Counted from the stretch's first letter, positions 26,990 to 32,880 are shown. The stretch is DNA of 64,000 nt from Tsukamurella sp. 1534 (GCF_000312385.1 NZ_HE997627.1:253911-317910); one strand, 5' to 3'. The notes: generated from the letters alone by a model not told the origin. Numbers and translations: made by a program.

Positions 26990-28015
26990 TCACGTCCGCA
27001 CGAGCGCGGACCCCGCGAAGTCGCCGGCGTGCGCGAACGCGGCGAGCACCACGTCCTCCCCCGGCGCGATCCGGCCGTCCGCGAGGGCGGTCGCGAAGGT
27101 GTGCGGGACGCCCACGGCGAATAGGTTGCCGCACTCGTCGAAGGTGTCCGGGTGGCGTTCGGGCGGAAGTTCCAGCGCCTCGCGCCAGTTCCGCAGGAAC
27201 GTGCGGTTGGGCTGGTTGGTGACGAGGTGCCCCACCTGCGGGCCGGTCAGCCCGCCCGCCGCGGCCGCCTGGAGCGCGACCTCGGGGACGAGGCGGTTGC
27301 CGCGCGCGAGGACCTTCGCGATCTTCGACTCGGTGAAGCCCACGTGGAGCTGTCCCTCACCGGCCTCCCAGTACCTGCGGGGCGGGTCGACCGCCGCGGT
27401 CATGTCACCCGCGTACTCGCTGTGCTGGGCGACGGTCACGTTCCGCACCTCGATGCCGCCCACGCCCGGGTCGGCGACCACCAGGGCCGCCGCGGCGCCG
27501 TCGCCGGGGATCGCGGCCTGCGGCAGGTTCCGCACCCGGTCCTGGGTGAACACGTTGCCCGCGGCGTTCGTCGCGGTGAGCAGGAGCGCGGAGCGGGCGG
27601 TCCCGGCGGCGGCCATGGTGCGCACGAGGTGCAGCATCAGCATGAACGCGGCGCAGCCGCCGTTGTGCAGGTCCAGCACGAGCGTGGGGCGCACGCCCAG
27701 CCGGCGCGCCACATCGCCGCCGCACCCCACGACGGGCAGGTCGGGCAGCTGGGAGTGGGTGAGGATCACGTCGGCCCGCTCGATCGCATCGGATCCGACC
27801 TGCTCCCGGAGCCGGTCGACGGCCGCGCACATGAGCTCCACGTTGGACTCCTCGGGCGCGGCGTGGTGCCGGAACGCGGGTGGCGCGAACATCGGATTCG
27901 AGGTCAGGGTGCGGCTGTCGGCGTCAGCGAACTCACGGAAGTAGTCGGCGGAGACCCGGTTCTCGGGCAGGTAGGACGCGAGCCCGACGATGCGGGGGTT
28001 CGCGGGGGCGGTCAC
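26990..28015 (-). CDS. KAS III-like condensing or acyltransferase enzyme, atypical triad
   Basis: This 341-residue thiolase-fold protein resembles 3-oxoacyl-ACP synthase III. The nucleophile Cys121 lies in DLHNGGCAAFM. The His of the usual HQAN motif is replaced: the aligned sequence is TNQPNRTF, with Asn267. The later Asn (CGNLF, about residue 297) is kept. GDGAAAALVV is a thiolase-family Gly-rich loop. Loss of His argues against a normal decarboxylative condensation. Start GTG 28015 overlaps the upstream SRPBCC gene stop (GTGA). It is the third gene of a coupled operon with a ThDP enzyme and an SRPBCC-like protein. Confidence 0.82.
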   Translation of the reverse strand: MTAPANPRIVGLASYLPENRVSADYFREFADADSRTLTSNPMFAPPAFRHHAAPEESNVELMCAAVDRLREQVGSDAIERADVILTHSQLPDLPVVGCGGDVARRLGVRPTLVLDLHNGGCAAFMLMLHLVRTMAAAGTARSALLLTATNAAGNVFTQDRVRNLPQAAIPGDGAAAALVVADPGVGGIEVRNVTVAQHSEYAGDMTAAVDPPRRYWEAGEGQLHVGFTESKIAKVLARGNRLVPEVALQAAAAGGLTGPQVGHLVTNQPNRTFLRNWREALELPPERHPDTFDECGNLFAVGVPHTFATALADGRIAPGEDVVLAAFAHAGDFAGSALVRT

Positions 28016-28644
28016 GACTCCATCCATTCGGGCCGGATGGGCCGCCCCGCGGCATGGCGGTGTTCTGCGATCGCCTTGAGGTTCTCGAGCTCCATCTGGT
28101 GGCCGCCGGAGAAGGTGTCCCACAGGTCGCCGACCCACACCGGGCGCTCCGGGGGCGCGGTCTCCGGGTAGGGGTTCTCGTCGTAGAACGGGTGGTGACA
28201 GTTGGTCCACAGCACCACCGACCCGGGCTTGTCGAACACCGTCTTCGCGTCGACCACCCGCATCAGGTAGATCATCCAGAGGTGCTTGCCCTGGTCCCAG
28301 GCGCAGTGGTAGTCGACGGTCCGCGCGTTCGGGTCCGCGACGGTGCGGGTGTAGATCTCGGTGTCAGCGCCGAGCATGTCGCGGGCCACCCACAGGCCCG
28401 GTTCGTCCGTCTCGCGGAACCCGCGCAGGCTGTACGTCCACTCCTCCAGCGAACGGGTGTCGGAGAGCCAGTCGTAGAGCTCGTCGGGCGGGGCGTCGAC
28501 GTAGGAGTGCACGGTGCAGAACTCGCCGTAGACCTGGTCGTGCGGATAGACGGACCGCAGGCGGTCCATGAGGATCGGCTGCGCCACGGGGCGCGGGTGG
28601 CTCTCGATCCGGATCGTGCCTTCGATCTCTTCTCTCGGGATCAT
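28012..28644 (-). CDS. SRPBCC-like (START/polyketide-cyclase type) protein
   Basis: This 210-residue protein has the layout of a START/Bet v1-like pocket: VYGEFCTVHSYVDAPPDELYDWLSD, a helix, then beta strands. SLEEWTYSLRGF and TVDYHCAWDQGKHLWM are typical of ligand-binding SRPBCC proteins, which close rings or carry hydrophobic molecules. It overlaps both neighbours by 4 bases, so its product probably acts on the same pathway as the ThDP enzyme and the KAS III-like enzyme. No catalytic residues can be assigned. Confidence 0.6.
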   Translation of the reverse strand: MIPREEIEGTIRIESHPRPVAQPILMDRLRSVYPHDQVYGEFCTVHSYVDAPPDELYDWLSDTRSLEEWTYSLRGFRETDEPGLWVARDMLGADTEIYTRTVADPNARTVDYHCAWDQGKHLWMIYLMRVVDAKTVFDKPGSVVLWTNCHHPFYDENPYPETAPPERPVWVGDLWDTFSGGHQMELENLKAIAEHRHAAGRPIRPEWMES

Positions 28645-30293
28645 CGGGGCTCCTTCGCGGTGTCGGGGAGGATCGCGGCGAACGGCGGCACCTCGAGCGG
28701 GTCCGTGTTCACCACCAGTGCGGAGGGACCGGCGGCGCGGAGCAGGTCCGCGCCGGCGGCGCGCGTGTCGGCCACCGTGTCGGCCGTGACCACCCTCAGG
28801 GACGGGAACATCGCCGCGAGCCCGTCGCCGATTCGCGTGTGCCGGAACGTGTTCAGGCTCGGCAGCCCGGCGAAGAACCGATCCTCACGCGCCACGCACA
28901 TGCCGTGCGCGTCGTTGTTGAGCACCACCAACAACACCGGCGCCCCGGATTCCACGGCGGTGTGGATCTCCATGCCGTGCATGTAGAAGGCGCCGTCGCC
29001 GGCGATGATCACGGTGCGCCGCCCGCCGGCGATCGCGGCGCCGACTCCGGCGGCGATGCCGTAGCCCATGCCGCCCATGCCGAGCGCCACGAGGAACCGG
29101 GAGCCGGTGTGCGGAGGCATCCGGTGGACCACCGCGGCGCCGGCGTTACCGGCGTCGGCGAACACCAGCGCGTCGGCGGGGATCGCACCGGACAGGGCCA
29201 GAACGGCGTCGGTGCAGGTGATCCGGTCGTTCCCGGAGCGCGGTGGCTCGATCGGCTCCGGCGGTGCGGTGGTCCACGGCGCGCGGGGGCGGCGCCCGCT
29301 GAGGCCGGCGGCGAGAGCGGCGACGTAACCGGCGAGGTCGGCGGTCGGCTCGTGCAGGCCGACGGGGTACAGCGGCGGCTCCGCGGCGATGTGCACGGTG
29401 CGGACGGCGTCGAGCGCGGGTTCCAGGCCCGCTCGGTCCATGATGTCCAGGTCGGTTCCGAGCGCCAGGATGAGGTCGGCCTCCGCTGCCGCCCGCGGCA
29501 CCGACGGGTGCCCCATGGGGCCGGAGACGCCGACGAAGTGCGCGCCGGCCGGCAGCGCGTCGCGGCCGTTGGGCCCCAGAGCGAACACCGCGCCGGTCGC
29601 GCGGGCGAGGGCACCCGCGGGGTTGGCCAGCCCGGCGCGGGAGGCGGCCTCGCCGAGCACGATCAGCGGCCGGGACGCGGTGGCCAGCGCGCTGCGGACC
29701 GCCGCAGACGGTTCGGGCGCCGGCGCGGGCGGCGACGGGATCCGGTGCCGGTCCGACGGTGCGGCGGGCGCGGTCTGCACGTCCTTGGGCAGGAGGAGGA
29801 CCGCGGGGTGGCCTCGCTCCAGCGCGTCGAGCGCACCGTCGAGCGCGGGCCACAGATGCTCGGGTGAGGAGACCTTCGCGGCGTAGCCGGTGATACCGCG
29901 GTACACCGCGAGGGCGTCGACGGTCCGCGGGTGTGCGCACATGTCCTGGAACCCGCCGCGGCCCTCCGACGCCGTCGGGGCGGACCCGACCAGAGCCAGT
30001 ACCGGCACCCGGGACTGGTACGACTCCGCCAGTGCGGGAACGCAGTTCATCGCGGCGCCGCCGGAGGTGGCGATGAGGCAGGCGGGACGGCCGGTCATCC
30101 GAGCGGTGCCGTCGGCCATGGCCCCCGCGCCGAATTCGTGCTTGGCGATGGTCAGCCGCAGGCGCGCCTCGGGAGGTTCGCGCAGCACCGCGGCGAACAG
30201 GTCCTCCGAGTTCGCCCCGTGGATACCGTACGCGTCACGAATTCCGTACGCGTACAAAGCTTTCGCCAGCACGTCCGCCACTGTGGGATCCAC
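28641..30293 (-). CDS. Thiamine diphosphate-dependent carboligase or decarboxylase
   Basis: This 550-residue enzyme has the three-domain acetolactate synthase/benzoylformate decarboxylase layout. The catalytic Glu53 is in AKHEFGAGAMADG, and the ThDP-Mg motif is GDGAFYMHGMEI through VVLNNDAHG (GDG...NN). The central domain has GPNGRDALP and GTDLDIM. It probably joins or decarboxylates 2-oxo acids to give an acyloin or aldehyde. It lacks a dedicated small subunit. It is first in a three-gene coupled operon and overlaps the next start (ATGA). The upstream 59 bases hold an inverted TTGC-GATG-GCAA (30336-30347) of uncertain meaning. Confidence 0.88.
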   Translation of the reverse strand: MDPTVADVLAKALYAYGIRDAYGIHGANSEDLFAAVLREPPEARLRLTIAKHEFGAGAMADGTARMTGRPACLIATSGGAAMNCVPALAESYQSRVPVLALVGSAPTASEGRGGFQDMCAHPRTVDALAVYRGITGYAAKVSSPEHLWPALDGALDALERGHPAVLLLPKDVQTAPAAPSDRHRIPSPPAPAPEPSAAVRSALATASRPLIVLGEAASRAGLANPAGALARATGAVFALGPNGRDALPAGAHFVGVSGPMGHPSVPRAAAEADLILALGTDLDIMDRAGLEPALDAVRTVHIAAEPPLYPVGLHEPTADLAGYVAALAAGLSGRRPRAPWTTAPPEPIEPPRSGNDRITCTDAVLALSGAIPADALVFADAGNAGAAVVHRMPPHTGSRFLVALGMGGMGYGIAAGVGAAIAGGRRTVIIAGDGAFYMHGMEIHTAVESGAPVLLVVLNNDAHGMCVAREDRFFAGLPSLNTFRHTRIGDGLAAMFPSLRVVTADTVADTRAAGADLLRAAGPSALVVNTDPLEVPPFAAILPDTAKEPR

Positions 30294-30352
30294 ACCGACA
30301 ACGGTAGGCGCGTCGCACGACCATCACAACGAAAGTTGCGATGGCAAACGCT

Positions 30353-30814
30353 TTAGGTTTCAATGAAGCGCTGCGCGTACGAGGCGGCCGCGTCGAGGTC
30401 GGCGCCGGTCGGGTGCCCTTTGTTCATCCCGCCGATCCACCCGATGGGGCCCATGGTGTCCCACCCGCGACAGAGGAACGCCTCGTCGGCGACATCGAAA
30501 CCGCGCTCCTCGAGCAGCGACCGGAGCCCACGGGTGTAGCGGCGCACCGGCGTCTCGGGCATCCCGCTGGTGGCGAAGACGAACGCGGAGCCGCGCGACT
30601 TCGACGGCAACGTTCGGATCAGGTCCGTCAGCGCGGAGTCGAACGACATCCAGTACACGCCCGATCCGAAGCCGACCAGATCCGCGCCGTCGATCTCCTC
30701 CTCGGTGACGTCGGCAGGGGCGACGACCCGGGCGTCGAGCACCGACGCGAGCCGGTCCGCGACCCTGCGGGTGTTGCCGTGATGCGTGGACGCGCAGACA
30801 AGTAGTACCGCCAT
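30353..30814 (-). CDS. Flavodoxin-family protein
   Basis: This 153-residue protein starts with LLVCASTHHGNTRRVADRL, the flavodoxin FMN phosphate loop (T/SxTGNT form). VGFGSGVYWMSF and FVFATSGMPETPVRRY are the second and third FMN loops. Length is that of a short-chain flavodoxin. It could donate electrons to the ThDP or KAS III pathway 60 bases downstream, but it also could serve the many flavin enzymes elsewhere. ATG 30814 is followed upstream by 84 bases of AT-richer sequence containing the divergent promoter region to the lipase gene. Confidence 0.88.
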   Translation of the reverse strand: MAVLLVCASTHHGNTRRVADRLASVLDARVVAPADVTEEEIDGADLVGFGSGVYWMSFDSALTDLIRTLPSKSRGSAFVFATSGMPETPVRRYTRGLRSLLEERGFDVADEAFLCRGWDTMGPIGWIGGMNKGHPTGADLDAAASYAQRFIET

Positions 30815-30898: not shown

Positions 30899-31888
30899 AT
30901 GCACATGAAGAAGGCCTTGGCGGTCCTCCTGGCGATCCTCTCGGCGACGGCGCTGACCTCGGCCGGCGGCGGCGCGGCGGGAGCCGCTCCGCTCCCTGTC
31001 CGGTGGGACCTGCTGTCCGCGGTCGTTCCCGCGTTGTTCCCCGAGACGCCCCCACCCGGCGCCAACGTGCCGTGCAAGCCGAGCGCCGCGCACCCCGACC
31101 CGGTGATCCTGGTCAACCCGACGTTCGCGAACCAGGCCACCGCCTTCCAGGCCGGCGCGCCGTACCTGAAGAACGCGGGGTACTGCGTGTACTCCTTCAA
31201 CTACGGCAACCCGGCCTACCTGCCGGAGACGCCGGTGCAGGCGCTCGGCGACATCCGAGACGGCGGACGCACGCTGCAGGCGAAGGTGCGCGCGGTCCTC
31301 GCCGAGACCGGCGCGAAGAAGGTGGACCTCGTCGGGCACTCACAGGGCGGCGGGATCATGCCCGCGTACTACGTCAACGTCCTCGGCGGCGCGAAGTACG
31401 TGGACAAATTCGTCGGCATCTCCCCGAGCAACCACGGCACCACCCTGTCCACCATCGCGTTGTTGCAGCCGACCCTCGGCCCCGTGGGCCCCGGCGTCAT
31501 GAAGATCCTCGACGTCCTGGGCCCGGCGCTCAGCCAGCAGGCCATCGGGTCCGAGCTGGCCAAGGAGGTGTACGCCGGCGGCGACACCCGGCCCGGCGTC
31601 ACCTACACCACCATCGTCTCGATCCACGACCAGGTGGTGACCCCCTACCCCCGGCAGTACCTCAAGGGCGACGCCGTCACGAACATCACCCTGCAGGAGG
31701 GCTGTCTCAAGGACTGGTCCGAGCACCTGTCCACCGTCTACAGCCGCCGCGCGTGGAACCACGTGCTCAACGCGCTGGACCCGGGGAACGCGAAACCCGT
31801 TCCGTGCGAGGCGGTCGCACCGTACTTCGGCTCCGAACCGCAACCCTGGGCCTACGACATGACCATGCTCGAGCAGCTCGCCAACTGA
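30899..31888 (+). CDS. Secreted lipase/esterase, first of a tandem pair
   Basis: This 329-residue protein has a signal peptide (KKALAVLLAILSATALTSAGGGAAGAAP, seen as a charged start and a hydrophobic core ending near AGAAP). The mature part has LVGHSQGG, with catalytic Ser148 in GHSQGG, and GISPSNHGTTLS. The next Cys pair (CKPS and GYCVY) probably forms a disulfide. It is an EstA/lipase class 2-like extracellular lipase. A second copy follows 11 bases after the stop; the two share most sequence. ATG 30905 is an alternative start two codons in. Confidence 0.88.
   Translation: MHMKKALAVLLAILSATALTSAGGGAAGAAPLPVRWDLLSAVVPALFPETPPPGANVPCKPSAAHPDPVILVNPTFANQATAFQAGAPYLKNAGYCVYSFNYGNPAYLPETPVQALGDIRDGGRTLQAKVRAVLAETGAKKVDLVGHSQGGGIMPAYYVNVLGGAKYVDKFVGISPSNHGTTLSTIALLQPTLGPVGPGVMKILDVLGPALSQQAIGSELAKEVYAGGDTRPGVTYTTIVSIHDQVVTPYPRQYLKGDAVTNITLQEGCLKDWSEHLSTVYSRRAWNHVLNALDPGNAKPVPCEAVAPYFGSEPQPWAYDMTMLEQLAN
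31780..31872 (+). repeat. 93-bp direct repeat, copy 1, 3' end of the first lipase
   Basis: This 93-base stretch, in the coding sequence of the last 36 codons or so, is identical to 32772-32864, including synonymous sites. It points to recent gene conversion or duplication. It begins CCCGGGGAACGC and ends ATGCTCGA. Confidence 0.8.
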
Positions 31889-31899
31889 AGGCGGGCGAG

Positions 31900-32880
31900 A
31901 TGAGAAGCCTTCGCCGCTCCGTCGCCGTCGGAGTGGTCGCGGCCGTCATCGCCGGGACGTGTGCCGCGCCGGCGGGCGCGGCACTCCCGGTCCGGTGGGA
32001 CGTGCTCACCGCGATCGGACCCGGCCTGCTCCCCGAAACGCCGCCGCCCGGCGCGAACCTCCCGTGCAAACCCGGCCCGCAGCATCCGAATCCGGTAGTC
32101 CTCATCAACCCGAGCGCCACCAACCAGGCGCTCGCCTTCCAGGCCGGCGCCCCGTTCCTCAAGAACGCCGGGCACTGCGTGTTCACCTTCAACTACGGCA
32201 ACGCCGCTTATCTGCCCGAGATCCCGGTACAGGCCGTGGACGACGTCCGTCGCAGCGCCCGAACACTGCGCGACAGGGTCCGCGCCGTCCTCGCCGAGAC
32301 CGGCGCGAAGAAGGTGGATCTCGTCGGGCACTCGCAGGGCGGCGGGGTGTTGCCCGCGTACTTCATCAATGTGCTCGACGGTGCCCGCTACGTCGACAAG
32401 TTCGTCGGCATCTCCCCGAGTAACCACGGAACCACCCTCTCCACCGCCGCCCTGCTGCAGCCGACCCTCGTTCCCCTCGGGCCCGCGGTGCGGAAGGTTC
32501 TCGACGTTTTCGTGCCCGCACTCGGCCAGCAGACCGTCGGATCGGACCTCGCACGGGAGGTGTACGGCGCCGGTGACACCCGGCCGGGCGTCACCTACAC
32601 CACCATCGTGACCGTCAACGATCAGGTGGTGACCCCGTACCCGCGGCAGTACCTCAAGGGTGAGAAGGTCACGAACATCACCCTGCAGGAGGGCTGTCTG
32701 AAGGACTGGTCCGAGCACATCAGCACCGTGTACAACCGACGCGCGTGGACCCATGTGCTCAACGCGCTGGCCCCGGGGAACGCGAAACCCGTTCCGTGCG
32801 AGGCGGTCGCACCGTACTTCGGCTCCGAACCGCAACCCTGGGCCTACGACATGACCATGCTCGAACAGCTCGCTGATTGA
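31900..32880 (+). CDS. Secreted lipase/esterase, second of a tandem pair
   Basis: This 326-residue paralogue of the preceding protein has its own signal peptide, RSLRRSVAVGVVAAVIAG ending at about APAGA. The same GHSQGG nucleophile, GISPSNHGTTLS block and Cys positions (CKPG, GHCVF) occur. The C-terminal 90 bases are identical to copy 1. Two co-directional copies 11 bases apart suggest a duplication that still exchanges sequence. The pair may divide the work on different acyl chains. The host may use them on external lipids. Confidence 0.88.
   Translation: MRSLRRSVAVGVVAAVIAGTCAAPAGAALPVRWDVLTAIGPGLLPETPPPGANLPCKPGPQHPNPVVLINPSATNQALAFQAGAPFLKNAGHCVFTFNYGNAAYLPEIPVQAVDDVRRSARTLRDRVRAVLAETGAKKVDLVGHSQGGGVLPAYFINVLDGARYVDKFVGISPSNHGTTLSTAALLQPTLVPLGPAVRKVLDVFVPALGQQTVGSDLAREVYGAGDTRPGVTYTTIVTVNDQVVTPYPRQYLKGEKVTNITLQEGCLKDWSEHISTVYNRRAWTHVLNALAPGNAKPVPCEAVAPYFGSEPQPWAYDMTMLEQLAD
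32772..32864 (+). repeat. 93-bp direct repeat, copy 2, 3' end of the second lipase
   Basis: This copy is identical to 31780-31872. Upstream sequence of the two genes diverges by many synonymous and replacement changes, so the identity is local. Confidence 0.8.

Follow-up and report, generated by a model that had tools for sequence, protein, structure and literature searches.

The whole stretch of DNA analysed, here called the window, comprises 64,000 nucleotides from Tsukamurella sp. 1534 and contains a three-gene operon on its minus strand in which neighbouring pairs share 4 bases each (ATGA and GTGA). The first gene (28641–30293) encodes a 550-residue ThDP-dependent carboligase, the counterpart of CqsB3/NzsH, with a catalytic glutamate (Glu53) and a GDG...NN ThDP/Mg motif. 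The second (28012–28644) encodes a 210-residue SRPBCC protein that resembles carbazole synthase and is the counterpart of the cyclases CqsB2/NzsI. The third (26990–28015) encodes a 341-residue KAS III-like condensing enzyme, the counterpart of CqsB1/NzsJ, with Cys121, Asn267 and Asn297 in its active site; the Asn267 codon (27215–27217, minus strand) stands where a catalytic histidine would be specified. The original prediction had placed the operon at these coordinates and named these residues and Glu53, and its reading of the first and middle proteins as an acyloin-type ThDP carboligase and a hydrophobic-pocket SRPBCC protein holds.

The operon leader (30294–30352, minus strand) was compared in an alignment of 14 upstream regions. 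A CRP-like element, TTGTGA-N6-TCACA, is conserved in the leader of other Tsukamurella and degenerate in the window; in L049 and L065 it matches the CRP consensus perfectly. Beyond the leader lies a gene for a Flavodoxin_5 protein (30353–30814, minus strand; Pfam PF12724). Its membership in the operon is doubtful, as several Tsukamurella trios have no such gene next to them, and we do not count it as a firm operon part since the separate leader with its CRP-like site divides it from the ThDP gene. Among the loci compared, no genus other than Tsukamurella has a flavodoxin gene beside the trio. Two tandem, closely similar genes for alpha/beta-hydrolase-like proteins (30899–32880) also adjoin the operon; both proteins have signal-like N-termini and the C-terminus PYFGSEPQPWAYDMTMLEQLA.

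The middle gene encodes a relative of carbazole synthase

The SRPBCC protein matches no Pfam family, and its identity is therefore not obvious. Its sequence identity to CqsB2, which acts as carbazole synthase in the carquinostatin pathway, is 43%. A phmmer search of all PDB sequences gave CqsB2 (6ipv) as the only real match (E = 2.5e-49 over 179 residues). A Foldseek search with the predicted structure also returned 6ipv as the top match, which we take as support and not as proof because the model is of moderate quality (pLDDT 72).

In the biosynthesis of carquinostatin, one of the carbazole antioxidants of Streptomyces, CqsB3 (ThDP) joins indole-3-pyruvate and pyruvate, the KAS III-like CqsB1 condenses the resulting β-keto acid with an acyl-ACP, releasing CO2, and CqsB2 then closes the ring; NzsH, NzsJ and NzsI perform the same steps for neocarazostatin, and both sets have been reconstituted in vitro (PMC7466098). 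The original prediction was thus mistaken in treating this combination of enzymes as undescribed, as CqsB3/CqsB2/CqsB1 and NzsH/NzsI/NzsJ are the same set (PMC7466098). Other systems are alike in part: xenocyloin XclA/XclB/XclC combines acyloin-type ThDP chemistry with a KAS III-like protein, and scytonemin ScyA/ScyC combines it with a cyclase, although the match of the SRPBCC protein to ScyC is weak (only 19 bits). To our knowledge, neither the Xcl nor the Scy set contains the complete trio.

The trio is conserved across actinobacterial genera

A scan of named genomes gave 544 loci, and the best 80 of these are mostly from Tsukamurella (including T. pseudospumae JCM 13375), Gordonia, Nocardia and Mycobacterium. 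In the window's genus, 14 of the 15 other genomes have the SRPBCC gene, which is single-copy in nearly all Tsukamurella genomes; it is also present in 202 of the 297 genomes of the genus taken as Mycobacterium (about two thirds of species). It is rarer in the genus of G289, taken as Streptomyces (26/296), where two kinds occur: six genomes have CqsB2-type proteins (71–100% identical to the CqsB2 fragment), others have proteins of the window kind (43–48%), and G289 alone has both. The CqsB2 fragment is matched at 100% identity in the genome of L178, and the real carquinostatin-type loci recovered contain the same three families. We refer to loci with window-kind proteins, as distinct from the six carquinostatin-type loci, as ‘type M’.

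The original prediction had called for a search for the trio in actinobacteria, and the search shows that it is conserved. About 100 loci in Tsukamurella, Gordonia, Nocardia, Mycobacterium and Streptomyces were compared, and nearly all have the order ThDP–SRPBCC–KAS III, the type-M exceptions being L129, L197 and L112 (a cut contig), whereas the carquinostatin and neocarazostatin clusters have the order KAS–SRPBCC–ThDP. High-GC genomes are rich in ThDP, SRPBCC and KAS III paralogues, from which housekeeping or unrelated genes could be brought together by chance; against this stand the 4-base overlaps, the gene order conserved across genera and the gain or loss of the whole block between rslA and marR (see below), and we consider a chance grouping extremely improbable.

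Apart from the three genes themselves, the gene met most often at these loci encodes a HisC-like aminotransferase and lies directly downstream of the trio (72/108 loci). The carquinostatin and neocarazostatin clusters use a HisC-like aminotransferase, as do most type-M loci; in carbazole clusters a histidinol-phosphate-transaminase-like enzyme makes the indole-3-pyruvate (PMC10100901). No such gene lies beside the Tsukamurella trio; the genome's nearest homologue is located elsewhere and has 39% identity. Unlike the two characterized clusters, type-M trios have no dedicated ACP, FabH or prenyltransferase gene as a conserved neighbour.

Several loci depart from the general pattern. The large genome G397, of the same family, has three divergent SRPBCC gene copies (L195–L197); at L197 the genes for the KAS and the aminotransferase are detached from the others and inverted. 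The ThDP and SRPBCC genes of Tsukamurella sp. PLM1 (L059/L081) are interrupted by frameshifts, through decay or sequencing error. The metagenome bin BOG_194 bears the label Acidobacteriaceae, which is probably wrong; in the KAS tree its trio (L070) clusters with those of Tsukamurella.

Active-site residues of the cyclase and carboligase

Residue mapping places Tyr126, Tyr154, His182 and Glu185 of the SRPBCC protein on Tyr144, Tyr172, His206 and Glu209 of CqsB2, and Asp89 on Glu105. Four of the five proposed CqsB2 catalytic residues are thus kept in the window cyclase, and the fifth is changed from Glu to Asp. The first four positions are invariant in 99 of 99 type-M cyclases, while the Glu105 position is Asp in all 99 and Glu in all six carquinostatin-type proteins. 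The change is conservative.

The ThDP protein contains the TPP_enzyme N, M and C domains (Pfam) and is 34–36% identical to the ThDP gene product of carquinostatin-type loci; Glu53, the GDG motif and Asn460 are invariant in an alignment with these loci. The sequence around the catalytic Glu is KHEFGA in type M and KREDGA in the carquinostatin type, a clade-fixed difference. Identity as a canonical acetolactate synthase was rejected by the curated cut-off.

An altered triad in the KAS III-like enzyme

The KAS III-like protein contains ACP_syn_III N- and C-terminal domains (Pfam) and is 27–30% identical to CqsB1-type proteins. Its AlphaFold2 model (pLDDT 87) adopts the fold of FabH, and PqsD and PqsBC rank among its best structural matches. 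In an alignment with a sequence that we take to be E. coli FabH, Cys121, Asn267 and Asn297 fall on C112, H244 and N274, and an independent alignment to 4ryb from the PDB also sets Asn267 opposite the His of the HQAN motif. The protein is not a plain FabH: it scores 74.7 bits against the FabH model, below the curated cut-off of 292.1, and the His is replaced.

The altered triad described in the original prediction is borne out by its homologues. The His244 column is Asn, not the His of HQAN, in 102 of 102 type-M loci and His in all six carquinostatin-type loci; the Cys and the other Asn are unchanged. The change is therefore old and fixed, and a sequencing error at Asn267 is rejected. In a KAS tree, type M and the carquinostatin type are sister clades relative to three FabH-type outgroups, though the branches are long and the outgroups few, so that the depth of the split is uncertain. 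Given the constant Cys-Asn-Asn set, where CqsB1 has Cys-His-Asn, we assign the window operon to a variant clade instead of listing it as a carquinostatin-type member. Judged by sequence, it adds a new branch to the carbazole machinery of bacteria, a distinct sister clade with a fixed Cys-Asn-Asn condensing enzyme. All three type-M enzymes have clade-fixed changes (KAS III His to Asn, cyclase E105D and ThDP KREDGA to KHEFGA).

Precedents for the loss of this His diverge. It lowers FabH activity only ~10-fold, according to work cited in PMC4807248. In PqsBC, whose substrate is a free β-keto acid as predicted for type M, the cost is >10,000-fold and the His is essential (PMC4807248); the effect of Asn in type M is therefore not readable from precedent. 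PqsBC resembles the type-M enzyme in its KAS III fold and its incomplete FabH triad, and it performs the condensation proposed here for type M, of a fatty acyl group with a free β-keto acid, but PqsC keeps the His and lacks the Asn (Val299), and PqsBC is a heterodimer that makes a quinolone. Invariant His residues of the type-M protein include His87 and His329, and one might speculate that such residues partly compensate for the missing one. The fixed His-to-Asn change constitutes a natural test of the need for the KAS III triad when the nucleophile is a free β-keto acid.

The original prediction had suggested non-decarboxylative acyl transfer or esterification as the consequence of the altered triad. 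The Cys-Asn-Asn enzyme would then O-acylate an acyloin, as XclB/XclC (xenocyloin) and CerJ (cervimycin) do, and the SRPBCC protein would only bind or rearrange the product. Such KAS III-like acyltransferases exist, the His serves decarboxylation in FabH-type enzymes, and Pau29, a proposed ester former, also has Asn at this position (PMC4425429). CerJ and Pau29, however, depend on a different Cys/Ser-His-Asp set. The modest cost of His loss in FabH and the ease with which a free β-keto acid gives up CO2 also argue against this pathway, as does the partner cyclase: its invariant CqsB2 catalytic residues point to a CqsB2-like substrate and only make sense after carbon–carbon bond formation. Esterification is therefore less likely than decarboxylative C-acylation, and we regard an acyloin ester pathway as improbable.

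A candidate pathway to lipocarbazoles

From the same three enzyme families and the common cyclase residues, we judge it likely that the trio forms the core of a pathway of carbazole type, and most likely of the lipocarbazole pathway of Tsukamurella. T. pseudospumae Acta 1857 is a lipocarbazole producer, according to reference 7 of PMC7466098, and another strain of that species, JCM 13375, carries one copy of the trio. Lipocarbazoles and carazostatin have a common 1-alkyl-2-methyl-carbazole frame (PMC11350554), which fits the chemistry predicted for the trio. Our literature search found no gene assignment for the lipocarbazoles, and the trio provides candidate genes.

By analogy with CqsB3/B1/B2, the ThDP carboligase would join indole-3-pyruvate and pyruvate into an acyloin-type β-keto acid. 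The KAS III-like enzyme would be loaded with a fatty acyl group on Cys121 and condense it with the β-keto acid as CO2 is lost (decarboxylative C-acylation); Asn267 and Asn297 may take over from the usual His/Asn pair in holding the enolate as it forms. The SRPBCC protein would then close ring A at indole C2, and the product would be a 1-alkyl-2-methyl-carbazole with oxygen at C3. Indole-3-pyruvate is a putative substrate here, as no aminotransferase gene adjoins the trio in Tsukamurella. The substrates may differ from those of the characterized proteins, given the distance from them (28–43% identity) and the clade-fixed active-site change in each enzyme.

Phenylpyruvate or 4-hydroxyphenylpyruvate could take the place of indole-3-pyruvate in the same chemistry, which would then produce a naphthalene or another non-carbazole ring. 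HisC-like aminotransferases accept several aromatic amino acids, the changes beside the ThDP catalytic Glu could alter donor choice, and the pathway of ScyC, the weak SRPBCC match, takes two aromatic keto acids. CqsB2 chemistry needs the nucleophilic indole C2, however, and a benzene ring is far less reactive; moreover, Tsukamurella is a known carbazole producer (PMC7466098). We consider this variant quite unlikely, slightly more so than the ester pathway.

The essential His of PqsBC counts against the lipocarbazole reading, and so does the redox balance. By our calculation from formulae, intermediate 1 minus one water equals the carquinostatin catechol, and a mono-oxygenated carbazole needs two more electrons, a reduction that CqsB2 chemistry does not supply. 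The trio loci compared contain no conserved reductase gene for this step, and the flavodoxin gene was dropped as a firm candidate for the missing reductant given its patchy occurrence in Tsukamurella. The trio offers a way into how mono-oxygenated carbazoles are made, a question posed as open in PMC7466098.

Association with sigL–rslA in Mycobacterium and Nocardia

The M. triplex cassette is found in the context secY-adk-mapA-sigL-rslA-[ThDP-SRPBCC-KAS-aminotransferase]-marR. Four Mycobacterium genomes that lack the cassette (L230–L233) have marR directly after rslA, a clean empty site: acquisition or loss affects the cassette as a whole. Cassettes located away from secY can still adjoin sigL-rslA (L219 and L220), and in three of the four Nocardia loci examined in detail sigL-rslA lies on the cassette's other side in the opposite orientation; the link is therefore not mere synteny.

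The pattern TGAAC...CGT, which we take to be the SigL promoter consensus, was fixed before upstream regions were inspected. Among 91 loci, 57 have it in front of the ThDP gene compared with 1.5 expected from shuffles, and permuted motifs occur in 0–5 of 80. The strict form TGAACY-N16-CGT is found in 44/52 Mycobacterium and 6/6 Nocardia loci and in 0/33 from Tsukamurella, Gordonia and Streptomyces (background 0.006 per 270 bases); these counts are non-independent events, as related species share ancestry. Its spacing is sharply fixed (e.g. L100:7178 and L082:7178), and it also lies just upstream of sigL in several genomes. The operon in the Tsukamurella window has no SigL site.

SigL is released by RslA upon oxidation (PMC2877774), and the MarR protein of the rslA-marR site controls sigL-rslA (PMC13002591). 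Together with the SigL-type motif, these properties suggest that the operon in Mycobacterium and Nocardia encodes an antioxidant pathway induced by oxidative stress. We tentatively propose, with rather less confidence than for the carbazole core itself, that a pathway to membrane-soluble, lipocarbazole-like antioxidants has been overlooked in most Mycobacterium species and in Nocardia, Gordonia and Tsukamurella. It would use Cys-Asn-Asn KAS III-like condensation, be switched on by SigL/RslA in Mycobacterium and Nocardia, be cleanly absent as a block from some species and persist as a decayed relic in genomes like those of leprosy bacilli. No such product is described for Mycobacterium in the literature searched, and the distribution of the trio points to a natural product pathway, tied to the redox sensor SigL/RslA, that would be present in about two thirds of species in this genus.

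Three reduced Mycobacterium genomes, L217 (G1165; 3,268,203 bp), L216 (G1130) and L218 (G1142), contain broken cassette remnants at the ancestral site downstream of secY-adk-mapA. These genomes probably belong to leprosy bacilli and their kin.
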